Shown: positions 5,034-61,488 of the stretch, piece by piece | Layout of the letters: each line of letters starts with the position of its first letter | Position numbering within the stretch: the first letter of the stretch is position 1 | DNA from: Chloroflexota bacterium | GTDB lineage: Bacteria > Chloroflexota > JAJPGV01 | Direction: 5' to 3' | DNA: 64,000 nucleotides | Assembly: GCA_021325635.1 (NCBI GenBank) | Contig: JAJPGV010000033.1 | Span: forward strand, 1-64,000 | Position numbers and translations under genes: made by a program | Notes under the pieces: model-generated | Databases searched by the model: none | What the model was told of the DNA's origin: nothing | What the model saw: the letters and a program-made list of their open reading frames with translations, nothing else

Positions 5034-5165
5034 CGGTACCCACAGGCCGTGATCGGCCAGCCACGACCCTACTGAGGCGGGACTGCGGGCGGTTGGCGAC
5101 CTCCCTATGCTGGCTGCGCTGTCGGAGCTGTTGGTGGGCTCTAGGCTAGGGCCGGACGTGGCCGG

Positions 5166-5855
5166 TCAATCCATGAACCGGTATTTGGCCAGCGTCTTGA
5201 AGGCCTCCCAGCCATCCTGCCAGGTGATCTTCTTGCCCTCGCTGTATTCCCGGCTCATGTAGCTGATTGGCACTTCGTAGATGTGGATGCCGCGCTTGAG
5301 GATCTTGGCCGTCACTTCCGGCTCGAAGTCGAAGCGCTGGCACTTGAGATCGATCTCGCGAAGCACATCCATGCCGAACAGCTTGTAACAGGTCTCCATG
5401 TCCGTGAGGTTGGTGTTGTAAATGACGTTGGTCAGCCAGGTGAGGAGCTTGTTGCCGACCGTGGTCCAGTAATAGCCGGTACGATGTCCGCCCAGGAAGC
5501 GCGAACCATAGACGACCCTGGCCCGTCCTTTGAGGAACGGTTCCAGCAGGTTGTGAAATTCCTCGGGCTCGTACTCCAGGTCGGCGTCCTGGATCACCAG
5601 CGCATCGCCGGTTGCTTTAGAGATGCCATAACGGACCGCCGTCCCTTTGCCGCGGTTGCGGTCCATGTAGTAGATAACGGTGTTCTGGAGGGAGGGCTCC
5701 AGTTCCTTGAGGATGTCCCGCGTGCCGTCGGTCGACCCATCATCGACGATGATCAGCTCTTTGTCGATCTGCACCGACTGGACCTTATCGATGATCTGAC
5801 GAATAGTCGGCCGCTCGTTGTACACGGGCATGACCACCGACAGCTTGAGACTCAT
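5166..5855 (-). CDS. Glycosyltransferase family 2, dolichyl-/polyprenyl-phosphate sugar synthase-like
   Basis: A 229-residue soluble GT2 enzyme. It opens with LSVVMPVYNERPTIRQII, carries IIVDDGSTDGTRDIL, a QDADLEYEP metal-binding segment and GSRFLGGHR, then TDMETCYKLF, all typical of DPM1-like enzymes that load a sugar from a nucleotide onto a polyprenyl phosphate. There is no C-terminal membrane anchor of the GtrB type. ATG 5855 begins the normal MSLKLSVVMP start; a TTG nine bases upstream is also in frame. A TATAAT box lies at 5868-5873 on the same strand, so the leader would be only a few bases. YfhO follows downstream and is the likely user of the lipid-linked sugar. Confidence 0.88.
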   Translation of the reverse strand: MSLKLSVVMPVYNERPTIRQIIDKVQSVQIDKELIIVDDGSTDGTRDILKELEPSLQNTVIYYMDRNRGKGTAVRYGISKATGDALVIQDADLEYEPEEFHNLLEPFLKGRARVVYGSRFLGGHRTGYYWTTVGNKLLTWLTNVIYNTNLTDMETCYKLFGMDVLREIDLKCQRFDFEPEVTAKILKRGIHIYEVPISYMSREYSEGKKITWQDGWEAFKTLAKYRFMD

Positions 5856-5867
5856 TACCCGCAAGCG

Positions 5868-5873
5868 ATTATA
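5868..5873 (-). promoter_or_regulatory. -10 box (TATAAT) of the GT2 gene
   Basis: TATAAT read on the minus strand, with 12 nt between it and ATG 5855 and 3 nt to the alternative TTG. No convincing -35 element is seen. The predicted 5' leader is a few nucleotides at most. Confidence 0.5.
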
Positions 5874-5905
5874 CGGCTAAGGGATCGTGATTGCGAGATC
5901 GTTCG

Positions 5906-5930
5906 CCTTTCGGCCCGTATTCCCGAAAGG
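5906..5930. terminator. Inverted repeat between rpmB and the GT2 gene
   Basis: CCTTTCGG (5906-5913) and CCGAAAGG (5923-5930) form a perfect 8-bp stem with a 9-nt loop in the 134-base gap downstream of rpmB. There is no T-run, so this may be a weak or Rho-assisted terminator rather than a classic intrinsic one. Confidence 0.35.
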
Positions 5931-6006
5931 GATCCTTGTCGAGGCCGGATCGGGATCCCTTGCTCGACGCTCGGATGGGCGGCCTCGCGGTTGGGCGATT
6001 GCGCCC

Positions 6007-6225
6007 TTAGCGGGTCTTGGCGACCTTCTGGGCGGTGCGCAGACAGCGGGTGCAGACGTTGATCTGCAGCGACCGGCCGTCGATGCTGACCGTGTGGCGT
6101 TGGATGTTGGGGCGCCACATGCGCTTGGTGCGTGGCGCGCGCATAGCCCAGCCACCACCGTGCTGGTGCTGAATGTTCTGTCCGAACTGCGGCCGTTTAC
6201 CGCAGATGTCACATCTTCCGCTCAA
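6007..6225 (-). CDS. rpmB: 50S ribosomal protein L28
   Basis: A 72-residue basic ribosomal protein beginning MSGRCDICGKRPQFGQNIQH, with WRPNIQRHTVSIDGR in the middle and NVCTRCLRTAQKV at the end. Cys5/Cys8 and the second C-x-x-C pair form the zinc-binding version of L28 found in many Gram-positive and Chloroflexota-type bacteria. It starts with TTG. It is divergent from the fakA-like gene, an adjacency conserved in Firmicutes and related groups. Confidence 0.95.
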   Translation of the reverse strand: MSGRCDICGKRPQFGQNIQHQHGGGWAMRAPRTKRMWRPNIQRHTVSIDGRSLQINVCTRCLRTAQKVAKTR

Positions 6226-6327
6226 TTTCGCCTGGTCCTTCTGCTATCATGCGCCGGACTGCGAGCCACCCGCCACCACACCCGCTGCCGGGAGTGCATT
6301 TCGCAGGGGAGAGGGCCGCTAACGACG

Positions 6328-7965
6328 TTGAAGGGTAGCACACGCCGCCCGCGCCTGCCAGCAGAAACCGCCCGCCAGCTTCTCGACATGGTCGAGAGCG
6401 GCCGCCGCTGCGTTGCGGATGAGCTGGCCGTCATCAATGGGCTGAACGTGTTCCCCGTGCCCGACGGCGATACCGGCACAAACATGCTGGCCACGCTCGA
6501 TGAGGCGCTGGCCGAGGCTCGCGAGGCCAGCAGCCCGGCCGAGGCTGCTCGAGGGCTGGCCGCCGGAGCGATGATGGGATCGCGCGGCAATTCCGGCGTC
6601 ATCCTGGCCCAGGTATTCCAGGCGCTCAGCGAGACGGTGGATCGGTGGCCAGATGAGACGGCCGAGGCTGGCCTGCAGGCCAACCACTTGGCGGCGACGG
6701 TCATTCGGGCGCGCGAGCTGGCCTACGGCGCCGTCAGCAATCCCATCGAAGGCACCATGCTGTCGGTGCTGTCGGCCTTAGCCCAAGCAGCCGCGCAGGA
6801 TGCGTCTGTCGCACCGAGCGCACTGCTGGGGCAGCTGCTTGGCGTGGCCGAGGCGGCGGTAGCGCGGACGCCGGAGCAGCTGCCCATTCTGGCCGAGGCC
6901 GGGGTGATCGATTCGGGTGGCTATGGCCTGTTGCAGATGCTGCGGGGGTGGTACGTCAGTCTGCGCGGCCAGGCCGCCCCGCGGCTTGGACCCCTGCTGG
7001 GCATCGAGCGAGTGCGCGAGCTCACGGCGGCGGGCCAGGGCCGGCCAGCGGAGCTGCTCCCCCATGCGACCGGCGGCTACGGCTACTGCGTGACCCTGCT
7101 GGTGGAAGCGGACGCGGAGCACGAGCCGGCCGTCCGGCAGCGGCTGTCGGACGTTGGCAGCTCCGTGCTGGTCAGCGCCGCCGCCGGCCGCATCAAGCTG
7201 CACGCGCACGTTCCCGACCCGCGGGTGGTGGAGAAGCTGGCGGCGCAGCTGGGATCGCTGCTGAGCTCCGAGATCTCGAACATCGATGAGCAGATGGGCT
7301 TGGTGCCTGCCGGCTCGCTGCCGATTGTCGCCGTGACGCTTGGCGCCGGCCTCGAGCGAGTCTTCCGGGGACTGGGCGCGGCGGTGGTGCAAGGCGGGCC
7401 GGGCCGGAATCCCAGCACCAGGGATCTGGCCACGGCTGCCCGCGACCGGCTCACAGATGCCGACGACGCGGCGATCTTCCTGCTGCCGAACAACGGCAAC
7501 GTGCTGGCAGCCGCCCGGCAGGCGGCCGCTGCCGAGCCGCGCCTCCTGGTGGTGCCCGCCACGAACGTCGCGCAAGGTGTGGCGGCGGTGCTGGCGTATG
7601 AAGCCGGCGCGACCTCCGACTCAAACTTGAAGCGCATGACTGGCGCCTGCGGAGCGGTAACGTACGTCGAGCTCGTGGAAGCGGTGCGATCGGCTCGCAT
7701 CGGCGGCGTGCCGGTCGAGCCGGGCGACGTGATGGTCATGCTCGACGGCAGCCTTGTGGGCGTTGGTGAGGCTGGGCTGTCGGCGCTGATCGAGCGCCTG
7801 CGCGCCGGCTCGTTCGAGCTTGTCACCATCTACTGGGGCAGTGGTGGATCGCGCGAGGGCGCCGCGGAGCTACGGGCCCGGCTGGCCGGGGCTCTGCCGG
7901 GACTGGAAGTCGAGGCAGTAGAAGGAAATCAGCCGTACGCGCGCTATCTCCTGTCTTTGGAATGA
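6328..7965 (+). CDS. DAK2/DegV-type kinase (FakA/YloV-like)
   Basis: A 545-residue protein of the family whose studied member, FakA, phosphorylates fatty acids bound to a FakB (DegV) partner. The N-terminal DAK2 domain shows NVFPVPDGDTGTNM (residues about 40-53), MMGSRGNSGVILAQ and NPIEGTMLSV, the nucleotide and metal-binding segments. The middle and C-terminal parts (GYGYCVTLL, FLLPNNGNVLAAARQA, MLDGSLVGVG) match the rest of FakA. No ATG or GTG fits the family N-terminus; TTG 6328, 13 bases after GGGGAGAGGG, gives the expected length. The frame stays open further upstream but that part is antisense to rpmB. The common Asp23/YloU gene is absent here, and recG follows, as in many genomes. No FakB gene is in the window. 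Confidence 0.85.
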   Translation: MKGSTRRPRLPAETARQLLDMVESGRRCVADELAVINGLNVFPVPDGDTGTNMLATLDEALAEAREASSPAEAARGLAAGAMMGSRGNSGVILAQVFQALSETVDRWPDETAEAGLQANHLAATVIRARELAYGAVSNPIEGTMLSVLSALAQAAAQDASVAPSALLGQLLGVAEAAVARTPEQLPILAEAGVIDSGGYGLLQMLRGWYVSLRGQAAPRLGPLLGIERVRELTAAGQGRPAELLPHATGGYGYCVTLLVEADAEHEPAVRQRLSDVGSSVLVSAAAGRIKLHAHVPDPRVVEKLAAQLGSLLSSEISNIDEQMGLVPAGSLPIVAVTLGAGLERVFRGLGAAVVQGGPGRNPSTRDLATAARDRLTDADDAAIFLLPNNGNVLAAARQAAAAEPRLLVVPATNVAQGVAAVLAYEAGATSDSNLKRMTGACGAVTYVELVEAVRSARIGGVPVEPGDVMVMLDGSLVGVGEAGLSALIERLRAGSFELVTIYWGSGGSREGAAELRARLAGALPGLEVEAVEGNQPYARYLLSLE

Positions 7966-7990
7966 GGCTGCGAGCAGACAGTCGAGCTGA

Positions 7991-10510
7991 ATGAGCGTTC
8001 TCGAAACTGCCCGGCGTATCCTGCTCCTGGAGCAGCGCGATGGCCTGCGCGACCGTACCGTGATCGGCGGCCTGGACGAATTCCTGGAGCAGGCCCGCAA
8101 GGTTGCCCTGCCCACACTGGCTGAGTCCGACTCACGCCAGGTGAGCGCCGTCTTCGCCCCCCTTCAGGGCTACAGCCAGGCCTCCATGCGCGAGCGCAAG
8201 GCCATGATCGAGCACGCGCTTGACGCCCTGGGCCATGCCTTGGTGGAGCAGCGTGGGAACGCGGTTTCGCGCGGCGAGGGGCCGGGGATTGAGGGCCGGG
8301 GGCCGGAAGGGCCGCGACGTGTGGCCGGGGCCGAGGCGATCGGCGCGGCGCCCCGGCGGGCTCCTCGCGCCCGCTCGTCATCGTCGTCGAAGGCGTCCTC
8401 AGCCCCGACATCCAGCCCCCGACCCTCAACCCCCGGCGCTCGCGATGCCGTCCGCCTCGACCTGCCCATCGAGCGTGTGCCTGGCGTGACGGCGGCGGTC
8501 GCGCCGCGGCTGCGCAAGCTGGGCATCTCACTGGCGGGCGACCTGTTGACCATGTACCCCTTCAGGCACATGGATCGCAGCTCCATGACCCCGATCGCCG
8601 GCGTGGCGCCTGGCGAAGACGTGACGGTCATGGGCACGATCTGGCAGATCGGCAGCGAGCGCCGCCGGGGCGGGATGACCACCACCACCGCGCTGGTCAC
8701 CGACCAGTCGGGCACTCTGACAGCCACCTGGTTCAACCAGCCCTACCTTGCCAAGACCCTGCGCCAGCATGCCGAGGTCGTGCTCAGCGGGAGGGTCGAG
8801 CTGTTCCGCGGCAAGCCCCAGCTTCGCGCTCCGGATTGGGAGCTCATCACTGAGGACGATCTGCTGCATACGGGTCGGATGGTGCCCGTGTACCACCTGA
8901 CCGAGGGGCTCAACCAGCGCAGCCTGCGGCGGCTGATGAAGCGCGCCGTCGATACCTACGCCCCGCTGCTGGAAGACTTCCTGCCGGAGGACGTTCGCCG
9001 GATCGCCAATCTCATGGGTCTGTCCGAGGCGACGGCCCAGTACCACTTCCCCGATAGCGCGAGCGCGTTGGAGCAGGCTCGCCGGCGGCTGGCCTTCGAC
9101 GAGCTCTTTCTGATCGAGCTCAACGTGCTGCAGCGGCGCCGCCAATGGCAGGAGAGCCAGCCAGGTATCGCGCTGGGCACCGCGCCGGACTGGCTGGAAG
9201 AGGTGCGGCGACTCTTGCCGTTCGAGCTGACGGCCGCGCAGCAAAAGGTTCTCGACGACGTGCTGGCGGACATGGCCAGCGGACGTCCCATGAACCGCCT
9301 CGTGCAGGGCGACGTCGGCTCGGGCAAGACGGTCGTAGCGGCGCTGGCCATGCTGGTGGCCGCCCGCGCCGGCTACCAGGCGGTGCTGATGGCGCCGACC
9401 GAGATCCTGGCCGAGCAGCACTGCAGATCCATCGGCGGGCTGCTGGACCAGGTTGCCGGCGGGCTGTTCCAGGCGCCGCGGGTGGGGTTGTTGACCGGCA
9501 GCGTCAAGGGTGCGAAGCGCAAAGAGGTGCTCGATGGCATCCAGGCAGGCAGCATCTCCGTGGCGGTGGGCACCCAGGCGCTCATCCAGGAAGGGGTGGC
9601 CTTCAACAACCTGGGGCTGGCAGTGGTGGACGAGCAGCACCGCTTCGGCGTGGAGCAGCGCCAAAGCCTGCGTCAGAAGGGTTTCAATCCGCACCTGTTG
9701 GTCATGACCGCCACCCCGATCCCGAGGACGCTGGGTCTTACCCTATACGGCGACCTGGACATCTCGATCATCGACGAGATGCCGCCCGGCCGTCAGCCGG
9801 TGCGCACCAAGTGGTTCGGGCCGGAAGAGCGAGCGCGAGCCTACGATTTCATTCGCAGGCAGGTCACGGAGGGACGGCAGGCCTTCGTGATCTGCCCGCT
9901 CATCGAAGAGTCCGAGAAGGTGGAGGTGCGCGCAGCCACGGCTGAGTACGAACGGCTGCGGCGCATCGTGTTCCCTCAGTTCACGCTGGGGCTGCTGCAC
10001 GGCAAGCTCAAGAACCGGGAAAAGGACGAGGTCATGCAGCTCTTTGCTCGCAATGAGGTCCAGATCCTGGTCTCCACCTCCGTCGTCGAGGTTGGGATCG
10101 ACGTCCCCAATGCCACGGTCATGGCCATCGAAGGCGCCGAGCGCTTTGGATTGGCCCAGCTGCACCAGTTTCGTGGGCGCGTTGGGCGGGGCCAGCACCA
10201 GTCGTACTGCGTGCTCTTGAGCGATTCGCCTGCCGCCGAGCTCAATCCTCGGCTGCGCGCCATTGAGGAGACCCACAGCGGCTTCCGGCTGGCGGAGATC
10301 GATCTGGAGCTGAGGGGCCCCGGCGAGCTGTTCGGCAAGCGCCAGAGCGGGCTGCTGGAGCTCAAGGTTGCGCGTCTGACCGACATCGAGCTGATTGAGG
10401 AGACGCGCCGGGTGGCCAGCGGCCTCATCGACCGCGATCCTTCGTTGGGCTCCTATCCTCTTCTGCAATCCCGGCTGGATACGTTGTGGAAGGACGCCGA
10501 GGTCTCGTGA
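7991..10510 (+). CDS. recG: ATP-dependent DNA helicase RecG
   Basis: Branch-migration and fork-regression helicase. At 839 residues it is longer than typical RecG. An N-terminal helical segment (about 1-90) is followed by a low-complexity Gly/Pro/Arg/Ser linker (about 92-150), then the wedge/OB domain (RVPGVTAAVAPRLRKLGI onwards) and the helicase domains: GDVGSGKT Walker A near residue 440, DEQHRFGVEQRQ Walker B near 546, MTATPIPRTL, and VVEVGIDVPNATVM with QFRGRVGRG at the C-terminus. The added N-terminal region resembles that of plant, cyanobacterial and Chloroflexota RecG. The linker DNA contains inverted GC-rich repeat sequence (see findings). It follows the fakA-like gene by 25 bases and precedes rsmD. 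Confidence 0.95.
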   Translation: MSVLETARRILLLEQRDGLRDRTVIGGLDEFLEQARKVALPTLAESDSRQVSAVFAPLQGYSQASMRERKAMIEHALDALGHALVEQRGNAVSRGEGPGIEGRGPEGPRRVAGAEAIGAAPRRAPRARSSSSSKASSAPTSSPRPSTPGARDAVRLDLPIERVPGVTAAVAPRLRKLGISLAGDLLTMYPFRHMDRSSMTPIAGVAPGEDVTVMGTIWQIGSERRRGGMTTTTALVTDQSGTLTATWFNQPYLAKTLRQHAEVVLSGRVELFRGKPQLRAPDWELITEDDLLHTGRMVPVYHLTEGLNQRSLRRLMKRAVDTYAPLLEDFLPEDVRRIANLMGLSEATAQYHFPDSASALEQARRRLAFDELFLIELNVLQRRRQWQESQPGIALGTAPDWLEEVRRLLPFELTAAQQKVLDDVLADMASGRPMNRLVQGDVGSGKTVVAALAMLVAARAGYQAVLMAPTEILAEQHCRSIGGLLDQVAGGLFQAPRVGLLTGSVKGAKRKEVLDGIQAGSISVAVGTQALIQEGVAFNNLGLAVVDEQHRFGVEQRQSLRQKGFNPHLLVMTATPIPRTLGLTLYGDLDISIIDEMPPGRQPVRTKWFGPEERARAYDFIRRQVTEGRQAFVICPLIEESEKVEVRAATAEYERLRRIVFPQFTLGLLHGKLKNREKDEVMQLFARNEVQILVSTSVVEVGIDVPNATVMAIEGAERFGLAQLHQFRGRVGRGQHQSYCVLLSDSPAAELNPRLRAIEETHSGFRLAEIDLELRGPGELFGKRQSGLLELKVARLTDIELIEETRRVASGLIDRDPSLGSYPLLQSRLDTLWKDAEVS

Positions 10511-54270: not shown

Positions 54271-56721
54271 GTGGCCTCTGACGATCAGCTACTCGCCGCG
54301 GCCGTTGCGGCTCTGGACGCACCGTTGGCGATCTTGAGCGGCAAGGGTCGCATTCTCTTCGCGAACGCCGCGTGGAGCGAGCGCGATCATCAGCTACCGC
54401 TGTTCGGCACCGCGTTCCCGATTGGGGCGTCCTACATCGATTTGTGTCGGGCCGCTGTTGCACGAGTTGGTGCGGACGCACAACTGCTGGCAGAGGGGGT
54501 CGAGAGCCTAACCTCTGGCCAGCGCGACTCGTTCGTGCTGGAGTACGCCATAGAGGACGGCTCGGAGAACCGCTGGTATCAAGCTCGCCTGACCCGCTTT
54601 GGAGAAGCTTCCGAGCTGCGCATCCTCGTGACCCACTACGACGTCACAGAGCTGAAGGTGGCGGAGCATGCCCTGCAGCGTGGCGCAATGTTCGATGCGC
54701 TCACCGGGGTGCCGAACCGGATGCTGCTGCTCGACCGCGTCAACAGCGCTATTGCCGGCGCTAGACGCGAGGCACGCATGGTGGCGGTGATGATCATGGA
54801 CCTCGATCGCTTCAAAGAGGTGAATGACAACCTTGGCCATCACGCCGGCGACCTCGTCCTGCAGCAGGTCGCCCAGCGGATCACCGAGGTGCTGCGCGAT
54901 ACGGATACGCTGGGCCGGCTCGGTGGCGATGAGTTCGGCGTGCTGCTCACCGCTATCAGCCAGGCTCGGCACATCAATGCCGTGGCGGAGAAGGTCCTGG
55001 CGGTGTTCGAAGAGCCGTTCAAGATCGAGGACCACAGCGTGGATGTGGGCGCAAGCATCGGCGTTGCGATCTTCCCCGATCACGCTCAGGAGCCGGACAA
55101 TCTGCTCCGTCGTGCGGACGTGGCCATGTACAAGGCCAAGCGCGAAGGTCTTGGCTACGTCATCTACAGTCCCGACGGTGAAGACGCGCACGGGCTCGAC
55201 CGAGCAACCCTCATGCCCGGCCTGCGCCAGGCCATGGAACGGGACGAGCTGGCGCTGCGTTACCAGCCGCGGGTGTTGCTTGCGGACCATCAGCTCGTTT
55301 CCGCAGCGACCACGCTGGAGTGGGACCATCCGGAGTTCGGCTTGCTGAACGAAGAGCAGTTTTCGCCCCTGGCCGAGCGCACCGGGTTAATCAAGCCGCT
55401 CACCCACTGGACCTTGAACGCGACGCTACGGCAGAGCAGGGTGTGGCAAGAAGCCGATGACCACCTTACCGTGGCCGTGCGCCTGTCACCCCGCGTCCTT
55501 CAGGACCCACAGCTGCCGCAAGCGGTGGCGCGGCTGCTGCGAGCTTATGCCCTTCCACCGCAGTGTCTCGAAGTGGACGTAGATGCGGCCAGCCTGGCCT
55601 CCGAGCAGGTGTTCGAAACAGTCAACCGGCTGGGGGACCTCGGCGTGAAATTGTGTCTCAGCGACTTTGCCAGCGGCTATTCCGGAATGCCCTTCCTGCG
55701 GCGCCTGCCCATTCACGAGATCGCTTTGCCGCGAGCTTACGTCGCGAACCTGGGTCAGGAGGAGGAGGACGCAGCTATCGTTCGCTCCACCGTAGAGCTG
55801 GCCCACGACATGGGCGTACAGGTGCTGGCCTTCGACGTGGACACGCCCGAAGCCGAAGAGCGCCTGCGTGAGGTCGGCTGCGATCTCGTTCAAGGCGCGC
55901 GGGTCGCTCCGGCCATGTCGCTGGATGAGTTCGAGCGCTGGCGGCTCCTCGAAGGAGATCATGCCAATGAGGCTTCTCCGGTTGCCGCTCAATCGTTCAG
56001 GAAGCCGGCGGTTCGCGACGAGAGCGACGCCGGGAAGAAGCCCGCTGCCGAGCTGCTCGCGCAGATCAGCCTATTCAGCCTGCTGGATGCCAGGGACTTG
56101 AAGGAGCTGGCGGCGGTTACCCGGGTGCGTCGATGTGACGCGGGCGACGTGATCTTCCGAAAGGAGGATCCGGGCTACACCTTGTATCTCATCGTTTCCG
56201 GCGCGGTCAAGATCTCCGATCCTTCGCCGAAGGGCGGGGAAATGATCCTCGCGATCCTCCGTTCCGGCCAGTTCTTCGGCGAGCTTTCGCTCTTTGACGA
56301 CGAACCGCGCTCGGCGGATGCCATCGCGGTTGAGCCGACAGAGCTGCTGGCGCTGTCACGCGAAGACCTGCTGAAGGTTATCAATCGCCGGCCAAGTGTG
56401 ACCGTGCACCTGTTCAAGATCCTGAGCCAGCGCATTCGCGCCACCAACGAGACCCTGCGCGAGATCACCGCGCTCAGCTTGCCGGGCCGCATTGCCAAAC
56501 GGCTGCTCGACCTGTCCGATCTGCTGGGGGAGCGCCAGACGGACGGGATGCTCATTCCGCTGGTGCTGGGCCCGGAGGAGATCAGCAACATGATTGGGGC
56601 GCCAGCCGGCGAAGTTGAACGTGTGCTGGAATCGTTCCGGTTCAGCGGCCTCATCCACTGGGAAAACGAAGGGCTGCTGCTGGCCAACGAGCAGGAGCTG
56701 CAATCCATATCGCTGGGCTGA
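54271..56721 (+). CDS. PAS-GGDEF-EAL-CRP/FNR fusion regulator
   Basis: An 816-residue cytoplasmic protein with four recognisable parts. Residues about 1-125: PAS-like sensor. About 130-300: diguanylate cyclase domain with FDALTGVPNRMLLLDRV, MIMDLDRFKEVNDNLGHHAG and an intact RLGGDEFG active site near 216-222. About 315-565: EAL domain that has lost its key residues (AATTLEWDHPEFG at the EAL position, LCLSDFASGYSGMPFLRRLP instead of DDFGTGYSS), so phosphodiesterase activity is unlikely. About 590-816: cyclic-nucleotide-binding fold (LISLFSLLDARDLKELAAVT-like start, GQFFGELSLFDDEPRSADAI) and a CRP helix-turn-helix (EEISNMIGAPAGEVERVLES). It may make c-di-GMP and also act as a transcription factor. 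GTG 54271; no clear ribosome-binding site. Confidence 0.85.
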   Translation: MASDDQLLAAAVAALDAPLAILSGKGRILFANAAWSERDHQLPLFGTAFPIGASYIDLCRAAVARVGADAQLLAEGVESLTSGQRDSFVLEYAIEDGSENRWYQARLTRFGEASELRILVTHYDVTELKVAEHALQRGAMFDALTGVPNRMLLLDRVNSAIAGARREARMVAVMIMDLDRFKEVNDNLGHHAGDLVLQQVAQRITEVLRDTDTLGRLGGDEFGVLLTAISQARHINAVAEKVLAVFEEPFKIEDHSVDVGASIGVAIFPDHAQEPDNLLRRADVAMYKAKREGLGYVIYSPDGEDAHGLDRATLMPGLRQAMERDELALRYQPRVLLADHQLVSAATTLEWDHPEFGLLNEEQFSPLAERTGLIKPLTHWTLNATLRQSRVWQEADDHLTVAVRLSPRVLQDPQLPQAVARLLRAYALPPQCLEVDVDAASLASEQVFETVNRLGDLGVKLCLSDFASGYSGMPFLRRLPIHEIALPRAYVANLGQEEEDAAIVRSTVELAHDMGVQVLAFDVDTPEAEERLREVGCDLVQGARVAPAMSLDEFERWRLLEGDHANEASPVAAQSFRKPAVRDESDAGKKPAAELLAQISLFSLLDARDLKELAAVTRVRRCDAGDVIFRKEDPGYTLYLIVSGAVKISDPSPKGGEMILAILRSGQFFGELSLFDDEPRSADAIAVEPTELLALSREDLLKVINRRPSVTVHLFKILSQRIRATNETLREITALSLPGRIAKRLLDLSDLLGERQTDGMLIPLVLGPEEISNMIGAPAGEVERVLESFRFSGLIHWENEGLLLANEQELQSISLG

Positions 56722-56798: not shown

Positions 56799-57365
56799 AT
56801 GGCTAGTATCACCGTGTCGGATAGAGAAGCCGACCTGTATCGAATTCTCCAGGTCCCGGAAGACGCGGACGGCCAGACGATCACGGCGTCGTATCGCCGG
56901 CTGATTTTCGAAAACCATCCGGACAGGAACAAGCGGTCCGATGCGACCGCTGTCACGGCACGGCTCAACAGCGCCTACAAGGTCCTGAGCGACCCGGTCG
57001 AACGCTCGCTGTACGACCAGCGGCGTGTCAGCGCCGCGCGCCAGCGCCAGGACAAGATCTCACGGGTGATCCTCGGCGCCAGCAAGCTCGTCATCTATGA
57101 GCTGCAGACGCAGAGACCGCAGCATGGCCACGTGAGCTGGCAGCCGGGAATCTGGAGCCAGATCATGCCGCACTTCCCGGAGTGTCGAGCGCGCGGTTGC
57201 TTGGTGCTGCTGTACATCGAACCCGGTACCGGCAAGCAGGTGTACCAGCACGGGGATCCTGGCGCGGTGCTCACTATCGACCCGAACCGGGGCGAGTTCA
57301 GCCGTCTCAAAGGTTGGCTCGAGCAGTGTCACGCCATGGAGGACGACCTCCGCGCAGCGAGCTGA
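56799..57365 (+). CDS. DnaJ-like J-domain protein
   Basis: A 188-residue protein. The N-terminal J domain (about 12-75) contains DLYRILQVPEDADGQTITAS, the HPD motif in ENHPDRNKRSDATAVTARLN, and the typical FxxxxEAYxxLSD-like SAYKVLSDPVERSLYDQRR. It lacks the Gly/Phe, zinc and client-binding regions of DnaJ. The C-terminal ~100 residues (GHVSWQPGIWSQIMPHFPEC, then VYQHGDPGAVLTIDPNRGEF) are unassigned. It should stimulate DnaK for a specialised client. ATG 56799 follows a G-rich leader. Confidence 0.85.
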   Translation: MASITVSDREADLYRILQVPEDADGQTITASYRRLIFENHPDRNKRSDATAVTARLNSAYKVLSDPVERSLYDQRRVSAARQRQDKISRVILGASKLVIYELQTQRPQHGHVSWQPGIWSQIMPHFPECRARGCLVLLYIEPGTGKQVYQHGDPGAVLTIDPNRGEFSRLKGWLEQCHAMEDDLRAAS

Positions 57366-57537: not shown

Positions 57538-57687
57538 ATGAGATCAGCAGAGGCTCGATCTGACGCTACTCGTGGCCTGAAAGGAAGCGTTATGCCCGGT
57601 CACCACGGAAGGACAGCAGCTGAAGCCTCGGCGAACACTGGCCGCCGCCAGCAGAAACTGGAAAAGGAGACTTTCGAAACGCGATGA
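57538..57687 (+). CDS. Possible 49-residue small ORF coupled to the first IPT gene
   Basis: ATG 57538 opens MRSAEARSDATRGLKGSVMP and continues with an Arg/Lys/Gln-rich tail, ending with TGA 57685-57687, which overlaps the ATG of the IPT gene (ATGA). The overlap suggests coupling, but there is no homology that I recognise and the ribosome-binding site is weak. Confidence 0.3.
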   Translation: MRSAEARSDATRGLKGSVMPGHHGRTAAEASANTGRRQQKLEKETFETR

Positions 57688-59498
57688 CCACTCCTGGAAA
57701 ACACCAGATGAAGGCCAGCTGGCTGGGGGCCGGCTTAGTCTTCCTTATCCTGTCCTTTCTCGGGCTGCCTTCGGCGTTCGCTGCCAACACGCTGACGATC
57801 GTCGGCGCTGCCAGCGCCACGGCTGGGAGTAGCTATTCGGTCACCGTCCGAGCGAACTACAACCCGGGTGCGCATACGGTCAGCATCAGCTCCAATGCGC
57901 AGAATTCTCCCAATGGCACGGCGCCAACTCCCGCGGTGGGGGGATCGATCGATCTCACCGGCACGTTCGCCTTTAATAGCGGCAGCGGCTTCTATGAGTC
58001 GATCACGTCCTTCACTTTCACCAAGGCGGTCAGCACCGCGATCACCGTCAATGATTCGACAGGCGGTGTCACGGGCAATTTGACCGTGCCGGTGAATGCC
58101 GGCTCCGCGAATCAGTTGGCGTTCACCCAGCAGCCCACTGACGTCAACACGCTGGTGGCCTTCTCGCCGTCGGTAGCGGTGGCGGTCTGGGACAGCGATG
58201 GCAACGTCGTCACCGGATCCAGCGCTTCGATTACCCTGGCCATCTCGCCGTCGTTCAACCCCGGAATGGGAACGCTGCAAGGGACCACTACCGTTGCTGC
58301 TTCGAGCGGCATCGCCACCTTCAATGGCGTGTCGGTCGACCAGCCCGGCACCGGCTACAAGCTGCAGGCGACGAGCAGTGGCCTGCCGACAAAGCTCAGC
58401 AGCCTGTTCAACGTCACCGGCAGCGCCGTGGCGGTCACTATCAAGAAGATCTCGCCCGCCTTTGGCCCGGCGACGGGTGGGAACAAGATCACCATTACCG
58501 GCACCGGACTGACCGGCATTACGTCGATGACCGTGGGGACGCAATCCGTGGCCTTGACGGACATCAAGGTTGTGGGCAAGGGTGGCAAGAGCATCAGCGT
58601 GTCGAACCTGCCCGCTGGGGTCGGAGCGGCTCATGTGAGCATCTCCACCGCGGCCGGGACGAACGACACCACCGACCCCGCCAGCGTGTACAGCTATGGC
58701 CCGGCCATAACCAGCATAAGCCCCAACTTCTTCACCTCGGGCAAGAAGGTCGTGATCCACGGCGGCAACTTCAAGGGGCTGACCAGCCTCAATTTCGGCA
58801 CCAGCCCGGTGACCTTCGCGGCGAGTGACATCAACAAAGCCGGCACCACGATCAGCGTCACTCCTCCTTCGGGGACAGGCGCGGTCCGGGTAAGCGCAAC
58901 CGGGCCGAACGGCTCCAATGACACAACGTCAGATGCCACCTACTTCGCCTTTGGCCCGCTCGTTACCAAGGTCAATCCCCCCGCGGGATCCTCTTCGGGT
59001 ACCGGTAAGGTGACCATCACCGGCAAGAACTTTGGCGCAAGCGCTTCGGCCCTCACCGTTTCGTTCGGGTCTGCTGTGGTGCCGGCAGCAAACGTCAGCC
59101 TGAAGGGCAGCACGCTCACCGTCTCCGCTGCGCCTGCCCAAGCCCTGGGCGACCCCGGCGTCGTCAACGTCGTGGTGACGTCGGCCACCTCGGGATCGAG
59201 CCCGTTGAACGCGGCGAGCGAGTACGCTTACGCCCCGCTGGTCACCGGTGTCTCGCCCAGCAGCGGATCGGCCGGGTCGAAGGTGAAGATCAACGGCAAG
59301 AACTTCACTGGCGCCAGTTCGGTGCTGTTCGGCGGCACGACACCCATCACGCTGAGCGCGAGCGATATCAACAAGACCGCCACGGTTATCACCGTCACCG
59401 CGCCGAGCGGCACCGCCGGAACCACAACGACGGTCACGGTCACCGGTCCTGGCGGCACGAGCGACGTGAACAGCAAATCTATCTTCACCTTCAAGTAG
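57684..59498 (+). CDS. Secreted IPT/TIG-repeat protein (first copy)
   Basis: A 604-residue exported protein. Signal peptide: MKASWLGAGLVFLILSFLGL to about SAFA. Then ~170 residues of Ser/Thr/Val-rich beta domains with an invasin-like QLAFTQQPTDVNTLVAFSPS segment, and four IPT/TIG domains starting at KKISPAFGPATGGNKITITG, TSISPNFFTSGKKVVIHG, TKVNPPAGSSSGTGKVTITG and TGVSPSSGSAGSKVKING. No catalytic motif or anchor is visible. It ends FTFK, as does the next protein, so the two appear to be paralogues. Likely role: surface or extracellular binding or scaffold. It starts an operon-like run with the S53 protease. Confidence 0.85.
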   Translation: MTTPGKHQMKASWLGAGLVFLILSFLGLPSAFAANTLTIVGAASATAGSSYSVTVRANYNPGAHTVSISSNAQNSPNGTAPTPAVGGSIDLTGTFAFNSGSGFYESITSFTFTKAVSTAITVNDSTGGVTGNLTVPVNAGSANQLAFTQQPTDVNTLVAFSPSVAVAVWDSDGNVVTGSSASITLAISPSFNPGMGTLQGTTTVAASSGIATFNGVSVDQPGTGYKLQATSSGLPTKLSSLFNVTGSAVAVTIKKISPAFGPATGGNKITITGTGLTGITSMTVGTQSVALTDIKVVGKGGKSISVSNLPAGVGAAHVSISTAAGTNDTTDPASVYSYGPAITSISPNFFTSGKKVVIHGGNFKGLTSLNFGTSPVTFAASDINKAGTTISVTPPSGTGAVRVSATGPNGSNDTTSDATYFAFGPLVTKVNPPAGSSSGTGKVTITGKNFGASASALTVSFGSAVVPAANVSLKGSTLTVSAAPAQALGDPGVVNVVVTSATSGSSPLNAASEYAYAPLVTGVSPSSGSAGSKVKINGKNFTGASSVLFGGTTPITLSASDINKTATVITVTAPSGTAGTTTTVTVTGPGGTSDVNSKSIFTFK

Positions 59499-59505
59499 GC
59501 AAGCG

Positions 59506-59564
59506 AGACTTGCCGGCAGAGGCAAGTCTGCAGGGGGCCGGCGACCGTAACTGGTCGCCGGCCC
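59506..59564 (+). terminator. Two consecutive stem-loops between the IPT genes
   Basis: AGACTTGCC and GGCAAGTCT (59506-59529, 6-nt loop) form a 9-bp stem, followed by GGGCCGGCGACC and GGTCGCCGGCCC (59535-59564), a 12-bp stem with loop GTAACT. Both arms are perfect. No T-run follows, so this could be a Rho-assisted terminator, an mRNA-stability element, or a processing site that sets relative amounts of the two IPT proteins. Confidence 0.6.
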
Positions 59565-59595
59565 TGCTCCATCACGAAAGAGGCATGGCAAGCAG

Positions 59596-61488
59596 GTGAA
59601 TTACAGGCGGGTCTCTTCCCTCGTTCGGCAGGCGTCAGGTGCGAGCCGTTTCGTGGCCAAGGCGGCAGGGGCGCGGTCCAGTCTGGCGCTGGCTTTGCTA
59701 GCTGCTTGCGCAGGCAGCCCACGGATCGCCGCCGCCGCGAACCAGCTGGCCAAATTCCAGGTGGTGGTTACGCCTGGCACGGTATCCGCCGGAACTCCGC
59801 CCACCTCTGTCGTGGTAACGGCCCAGGACAGTGGCGGCCTTACGGTGACGAACTATTCCGCCACCAACTTCCTGCTGTCTTCGACGGCCCAGCCGTCACC
59901 CAGCGGTCAATCGCCAACGCTCGGCACAGGCGTGTTTCAGAAGGGAGTCGCGACTTTTCATCCGGTCTTCTACAACGTCGAGACGGTGACCATCACCGCC
60001 CAGGACACGGCATCCGCGGCGACCGGAAGCGCTACGCTGGTGGTCACGCCGGCGGCGGCGGCGGCGCTGCAGTTCATTGCGCAGCCGGGCGAGACCGTCG
60101 AGCAGGTTGGCATCGTGCCGCCAGTGCAGGTGGCCATCCAGGACATCTACCAGAACGTGGAAGTATCGGGCGCAGGCGCGACGCTGCCAGTTACGGTGTC
60201 GCTGGACCCCTCCAGCCCTCCGGGGGGCGTCCTCCACGGCACGCTCACCCAGAATGCCGTCGCCGGGGTCGCGACGTTCAACGACCTATCGATCACCCAA
60301 CCCGGCGCGAGCTATGTGCTCGACGCGTCCAGCGGGAGTGGCGCGTCCGCGCTCTCGGGGGCCTTCAGCGACCCGTTTCCCATCGACGCGACGCCAATCC
60401 CTATCACGATTACCAAGATCAGTCCCAACTTCGGGAAGCTCTCCGGAGGCAACAGAGTAACGATCAGCGGCACGGGCTTTGCCGATCTGACCAGCATCCA
60501 GTTCGGCGCGAGCACCGTCGCGGGTACCTCAACGAAGGTCAACAGGCAGGGCACCAGCGTGGTCTTGTTCGCTCCGGCGGCCGCCAGCAGCACGCCGGGG
60601 ACGGTGCACGTGCAGGTGCTCACGAGCAGCGGCGCAAGTGACGCAACCACGGCTGCCAGCGCGTACAGCTACGGGCCGGTCATCAGATCCCTGAGCTCGC
60701 CGTTCGGCCCGGCAGCCGGCGGGAACACGCTCACCATCAATGGCGCCAACTTCGCGGGCATCACTGCCATCAGCTTCGGTCCCTACGCGGCCGACATGAG
60801 CACGGTGAAGGTGGCCAGAGGCGGCACGTCGCTCAAAGTGAAGGTTCCGCAGCCCAACACGGGCACGCCTGGCGCAGTGCACATCGTGATCACGGGTACA
60901 GGCGGGAGCAGCGATCCGGCCTCGGACGCCAGCCTCTACTCTTTTGGGCCGCGGATCATGAAGATCACGCCCGCCTACGGCTCCCCGAACGGAGGCAACA
61001 AGGTAGTCATCAGCGCTAAGAACCTTGGCACCAGCTTGTCGAGTCTGTCGGTGGCTTTCGGCAGCGCCACGGTTGGTTCCTCCAGCATTACCTTCAACGC
61101 GAAGATGGGAACGCTCGCTTTCAATGCCCCCGCCCAGGCCAATGGCGATCCCGGGGTGGTCAACGTCACGGTCACCGGCCCTGGGGGAGCGAGCGGCGTA
61201 CTCGCGGCGAGCCAGTACTCCTACGCGCCTGTCGTCAATTCGGTCTCCCCGCGCGCCGGCAGCTCGGAGACGACCAAGGTCAAGATCAGTGGCAAGAACT
61301 TTTCCGGGGCCACCCAGGTGAACTTCGCGGATGCCGTTGTGCCGTTGACGTCCGGGAACGTGAACCTGCAGGGCACACTCATCACCGTCACCGCCCCGGA
61401 CCAGAATCTTGGGACGTTTGCCGTGACCGTGACTAGCCCGGTCGGGACGAGTCCTCCGACCAATGCTGCCGTCTTCACCTTCAAATAG
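59596..61488 (+). CDS. Secreted IPT/TIG-repeat protein (second copy)
   Basis: A 630-residue exported paralogue. The N-terminus has a long basic region, then a hydrophobic core (SSLALALLAACAGSPRIAAA) for export; LLAAC is a possible lipobox with Cys about residue 38. Two Ig-like segments (FQVVVTPGTVSAGTPPTSVV; LQFIAQPGETVEQVGIVPPV) precede four IPT domains starting at TKISPNFGKLSGGNRVTISG, RSLSSPFGPAAGGNTLTING, MKITPAYGSPNGGNKVVISA and NSVSPRAGSSETTKVKISG. The end is FTFK. GTG 59596. Its 3' end overlaps the start of the S53 peptidase by 26 bases. Confidence 0.85.
   Translation: MNYRRVSSLVRQASGASRFVAKAAGARSSLALALLAACAGSPRIAAAANQLAKFQVVVTPGTVSAGTPPTSVVVTAQDSGGLTVTNYSATNFLLSSTAQPSPSGQSPTLGTGVFQKGVATFHPVFYNVETVTITAQDTASAATGSATLVVTPAAAAALQFIAQPGETVEQVGIVPPVQVAIQDIYQNVEVSGAGATLPVTVSLDPSSPPGGVLHGTLTQNAVAGVATFNDLSITQPGASYVLDASSGSGASALSGAFSDPFPIDATPIPITITKISPNFGKLSGGNRVTISGTGFADLTSIQFGASTVAGTSTKVNRQGTSVVLFAPAAASSTPGTVHVQVLTSSGASDATTAASAYSYGPVIRSLSSPFGPAAGGNTLTINGANFAGITAISFGPYAADMSTVKVARGGTSLKVKVPQPNTGTPGAVHIVITGTGGSSDPASDASLYSFGPRIMKITPAYGSPNGGNKVVISAKNLGTSLSSLSVAFGSATVGSSSITFNAKMGTLAFNAPAQANGDPGVVNVTVTGPGGASGVLAASQYSYAPVVNSVSPRAGSSETTKVKISGKNFSGATQVNFADAVVPLTSGNVNLQGTLITVTAPDQNLGTFAVTVTSPVGTSPPTNAAVFTFK

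Follow-up and report, generated by a model that had tools for sequence, protein, structure and literature searches.

A single bacterial gene was found to encode, in one chain of 816 residues, a PAS-like sensor, a GGDEF domain, a degenerate EAL domain and a CRP module. The gene begins with GTG and occupies positions 54271–56721 on the forward strand of the 64,000-nucleotide stretch of DNA that was analysed (the window), which comes from one genome in draft assembly. The reading favoured here, held with about even confidence on the strength of the residues kept and lost, is that the protein is a diguanylate cyclase controlled by a cyclic mononucleotide, which it senses with a captured CRP module no longer able to read DNA. 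Should this be correct, two messenger systems would be brought together in one molecule, with a cAMP-type input tuning a c-di-GMP output, and a transcription factor would have been captured as a sensor while losing its DNA-reading surface. The protein makes a clear test case, as the predictions of pocket binding and of HTH nonbinding both fall on one molecule.

One gene in one reading frame

Pfam searches, scored in bits against the Pfam cut-offs, gave the domain order from the N- to the C-terminus as PAS_4-like, GGDEF, EAL, cNMP_binding and a weak HTH_Crp_2, and no internal stop interrupts the frame at 54271–56721. The EAL domain and the CRP module are separated by a disordered linker (residues 564–586, 55960–56028 on the forward strand; pLDDT < 50), and this linker is coding in frame 0, the frame common to both flanks, where it codes best. 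Frame 0 is the sole stop-free frame across 55771–56270. Its codon-usage score over the linker is +8.0 vs −1.8 and −18.1 in the other frames, and it is best in 255 of 265 sliding windows, with a codon table that was trained in part on the flanks of the fusion gene. The position-specific GC keeps an unchanged rhythm all along the gene. The PAS-GGDEF-EAL-CRP fusion is thereby confirmed as real and read in one continuous frame, as the initial annotation had proposed. The frameshift joining two genes that it had named as a way to be wrong was rejected on codon usage and the distribution of stops through the linker.

An assembly artefact of this kind, with an indel in the linker joining two separate genes, is thus highly improbable. 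What speaks for it is a Shine–Dalgarno-like AAGGAG within the linker, with ATGs after it in the +1 frame (about 55953–55970; over 55953–56101 of the window the AAGGAG is followed by ATGCCAATG), which stays open to 56099, or ~46 codons; yet the coding scores favour frame 0, and the EAL gene would have to run on through a frame with poor coding signal to enter the CRP gene. The AAGGAG and its +1-frame start are possibly a relic of an earlier start, or chance.

An intact cyclase signature and a degenerate EAL domain

The N-terminal PAS-like sensor (residues 14–129, 54310–54657, forward strand) is marginal by score, as PAS_4 falls below the threshold in the whole protein and reaches 24.2 bits vs a cut-off of 23.1 with the segment scanned by itself. 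The region is of low confidence in the predicted structure, and related N-termini occur in other GGDEF-EAL proteins (loci L020, L025, L028 and L021).

Conservation along the rest of the chain was assessed with two panels drawn from the fusion's own genome and one phylum, one of 20 aligned GGDEF-EAL proteins for the N-terminal half and one of 38 aligned free-standing CRP proteins for the C-terminal part. The residues conserved at ≥90% in these panels were retained very unequally, at 41 of 44 in GGDEF, 23 of 24 in the cNMP domain, 36 of 62 in EAL and 8 of 14 in the HTH. When each relative was left out in turn, the lowest retention in EAL was 0.86, vs 0.58 for the fusion; for the HTH, one relative stood at 0.57 and the others at 0.77 or above, vs 0.54 for the fusion. 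Since GGDEF and cNMP are kept while functional residues of EAL and HTH are lost, the decay has not been uniform.

The GGDEF domain (residues 139–293, 54685–55149, forward strand; 166 bits) has its signature RLGGDEF, the GTP/Mg-site motifs and the RxxD I-site (RDTD) all intact in sequence, so that the residues expected of an active diguanylate cyclase are present, and the protein probably makes c-di-GMP. The EAL domain (residues 318–547, 55222–55911, forward strand) still scores 184 bits in spite of its lost residues. Its metal and catalytic residues are replaced (E346A, N404R, E436D, E439A, D464S, K485A and E521F, where E346 is the glutamate of the EAL motif and E521 the catalytic base of EGVE), as are R350 and D487 (R350E, D487P). 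EAL domains without the EGVE catalytic glutamate have been classed as inactive (PMC12900916). Judged by these residues, the domain looks dead for c-di-GMP hydrolysis.

Degenerate EAL domains in GGDEF-EAL tandems are also found in FimX and LapD. Sequence similarity to the fusion is weak, and the latter differs in having an intact GGDEF and in the replacement of R350, the EALxR arginine, which touches the phosphate of the ligand. With R350E and the other EAL changes, as seen in the panel alignment, the binding of c-di-GMP by the EAL domain in the manner of FimX and LapD is doubtful. The intact cyclase signature and the inactive EAL domain of the initial annotation are both borne out, the latter with more degeneration than it had described, and its suggestion that the inactive EAL serves as the c-di-GMP receptor is weakened by the loss of this arginine and several other conserved residues besides the catalytic ones.

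A CRP module with its pocket kept and most DNA-contact residues lost

The two halves of the protein were modelled separately; a joint full-length alignment of 43 rows had misplaced the CRP rows. The CRP module was predicted by AlphaFold as a complete fold (pLDDT about 88), with cNMP_binding and the winged helix in canonical order, and Foldseek matched the model best to GlxR and MtbCRP (TM up to 0.91). Sequence and fold both place these as the closest solved structures, several of them with cAMP. MtbCRP (Rv3676) and GlxR have the fold (TM about 0.9) and the cNMP pocket in common with the fusion, but each stands as a protein of its own, in which the RE(T/S)V recognition motif is retained.

The cyclic-nucleotide-binding domain (residues 620–706, 56128–56388, forward strand; 87–90 bits) has an intact phosphate cassette of the GEL...PRSA type, G670-E671-L672 and P679-R680-S681-A682, in which E671, R680 and S681 supply the Glu and Arg-Ser of the pocket of cNMP-gated enzymes. 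The T-N of the C-helix is the same as in MtbCRP, and the charge of the domain is normal for the panel. A pocket kept in this way would be expected to bind a cyclic mononucleotide, cAMP or cGMP. The genome has eight matches to class III nucleotide cyclases and six to PilZ, which makes both messengers plausible in the cell.

The state of the pocket also bears on the doubtful proposal that the CRP module is a dimerisation or scaffolding tail only, without ligand control of the cyclase. The C-helix dimerises CRP modules, as described for CRP and Bd1971 (PMC6717892), and the functions of the HTH and EAL both seem lost, as such a tail would allow. An idle pocket should, however, have drifted like the HTH, and here all but one of its conserved residues are kept, E671, R680 and S681 among them.

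The winged helix-turn-helix (residues 739–812, 56485–56706, forward strand) is folded in the model and scores only 28.9–32 bits against HTH_Crp_2 (cut-off 27), vs 67 bits in a paralog of the same genome (L006). The DNA contacts of E. coli CRP were mapped onto it via the conserved turn glycine, with a short E. coli segment whose register matches the printed Rv3676 alignment. The contact list has ten positions (PMC12531629), and the recognition logic is that of PMC11253593. Only one of the ten contacts is kept, R185 (R784 of the fusion), the changes being K166V, R169P, Q170E, S179P, R180A, E181G, T182E, K188E and H199E, so that phosphate-backbone contacts and the family-wide R180 and E181 are gone. 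R180 is found in 37 and E181 in 34 of the 38 panel proteins; the panel does not conserve K188 or H199, and the changes K188E and H199E therefore carry little weight. The charge of the surface has changed as well, with a net −7 for the winged helix vs a panel mean of +2.6 (range −2 to +6), and −2 for the recognition helix vs +1.2 (range 0 to +3). CRP-type palindromes of the classical kind are not in excess in the window (11 vs 16 expected), and a promoter and terminator scan gave nothing informative.

By this pattern of residues the module is a CRP by fold and origin, and probably not a DNA reader. Changes in the recognition helix could instead point to a new DNA specificity, which is disfavoured because the backbone contacts are lost and the surface is acidic. 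The complete CRP effector and HTH of the initial annotation thus hold for the fold, in the model and the Foldseek matches, and not for the DNA-contact residues, and of a protein that both makes the messenger and binds DNA the cyclase signature stands, while its role as a DNA-binding regulator is not supported, the contacts being changed, the winged helix strongly acidic and CRP-type sites no more frequent in the window than by chance. A free-standing CRP relative (L050, 956–1600 of G011:C252) is also without the RE recognition motif (GIEPRSIHSVL), and it may have lost its DNA-reading motif independently.

It is accordingly unlikely that the protein is a self-loading transcription factor, in which GGDEF would make c-di-GMP, the EAL or CRP pocket would sense it and the HTH would bind a re-specified DNA site. 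The complete CRP fold with its confidently modelled HTH would suit such a factor, and DNA-binding c-di-GMP enzymes do exist, such as PdeL, in which a LuxR-type HTH is joined to EAL and acts on its own promoter (PMC5052742). Against it stand the DNA contacts and the charge of the winged helix, the palindrome count for the classical site and the loss of EAL residues such as R350. We regard it as quite improbable that one chain both synthesises its second messenger and, with a CRP HTH of changed specificity, binds DNA; if it did, local c-di-GMP synthesis would be coupled to promoter control in one molecule.

In the gated-cyclase reading that we prefer, two sensory ends would control the cyclase, the PAS-like domain in front and the CRP module at the C-terminus. 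cAMP (or cGMP) from the class III cyclases would occupy the intact CRP pocket and rearrange the CRP dimer, and the change would be relayed across the linker and an inert EAL scaffold to the meeting of two GGDEF domains. Their altered pairing would change the rate of c-di-GMP synthesis, in a direction that could be up or down, and EAL and HTH would persist as folded elements with a structural or regulatory role. A CRP module at the C-terminus that controls an upstream cyclase has no structural precedent known to us.

Known systems, relatives and the genomic neighbourhood

A precedent for a CRP-like sensor on a c-di-GMP enzyme is Bd1971 of Bdellovibrio, a cAMP-gated enzyme of the cNMP-EAL type (PDB 6hq4-6hq7; PMC6717892), to whose Arg67/Ser68 and Glu58 the pocket residues kept in the fusion are equivalent. 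Bd1971 is an active phosphodiesterase driven by an N-terminal cNMP domain, whereas the fusion has an intact cyclase domain, an apparently dead EAL and, at the C-terminus, a complete CRP including the HTH; by analogy, it may work like Bd1971 with the opposite enzyme, without being a member of that kind. In Lcd1 of Leptospira (GAF-GGDEF), as far as it is described where it is cited (PMC8846402, PMC6717892), the proposed logic is alike in that cAMP tunes c-di-GMP synthesis, and the cyclase is activated by cAMP through a GAF domain rather than a CRP module (PMC8846402).

PdeL (YahA) of E. coli likewise has a domain of a c-di-GMP enzyme family and an HTH in one chain (PMC5052742), but its HTH is of the LuxR type, its DNA binding is demonstrated and its EAL is active, whereas the fusion has a CRP-type HTH without the contacts, a GGDEF domain and an EAL without the catalytic residues of a trigger phosphodiesterase. 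Clp and Bcam1349, the c-di-GMP-responsive CRP proteins named in the initial annotation, have in common with the fusion a CRP fold tied to c-di-GMP, and are, unlike the fusion, separate DNA-binding receptors without an enzyme domain.

The closest CRP relative found is the own-genome paralog (L006, G000:C53:64317-64943; 48–50% identity), whose recognition helix has retained its arginine and glutamate (ARRENVNR). A 16S search of that genome gave no match. A survey of 400 genomes of the phylum, probably Chloroflexota to judge by gene content, in which the class is represented by the fusion's genome alone, gave close CRP relatives in 64 other genomes, in frames of 223–360 aa, none of them fused among the strong matches. 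The corresponding search with the EAL part found ordinary-looking EAL proteins, again with none fused among the loci examined; both searches took in strong matches, so that a diverged fusion could be missed. A contig scan with six short patterns, sensitive to close relatives, yielded only two distant GGDEF or GGDEF-EAL matches, and no plasmid record among the best 5000 covered 80% of the protein. An ortholog of the fusion was thus not found in these searches, and the architecture was not found described in the open-access literature. The uncommonness that the initial annotation had claimed agrees with the lack of a second fused copy in the 400 genomes, at the thresholds used, or on plasmids.

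The initial annotation had also held that relatives with separate genes would undo the fusion. One distant pair of this sort exists, at 5059–8298 of G012:C23 (L030), with a GGDEF-EAL gene, 108 bases and a CRP gene on the same strand. That GGDEF-EAL gene lies beside none of the other 15 CRP matches found in the family, in about 1.5 kb around each (some contigs being shorter), and the pair looks like a local coincidence. As it is not an ortholog and other members of the family do not keep the two genes together, the pair was rejected as supporting evidence and does not refute the fusion.

The presence of the fusion in one genome only, with no ortholog found, and the occurrence of tandem GGDEF-EAL and CRP genes elsewhere would fit a recent fusion of two neighbour genes in one lineage, in which redundant EAL and HTH domains are eroding neutrally. 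We consider this improbable, given that the losses sit on functional residues while the fold residues, the reading frame and the codon bias are intact, and that the EAL domain still scores 184 bits and the model of the HTH is a confident one. With no ortholog found, the loss pattern may stem from selection or from early decay.

Elsewhere among the relatives, a CRP gene with a full HTH adjoins a frame with a second cNMP-binding domain and without an HTH (L032, 695–2138 of G003). Downstream of the fusion gene in the window, two adjoining proteins, each matching the IPT/TIG domain four times, are encoded at 57684–61488, and a short J-domain gene (56799–57365) lies between them and the fusion gene.
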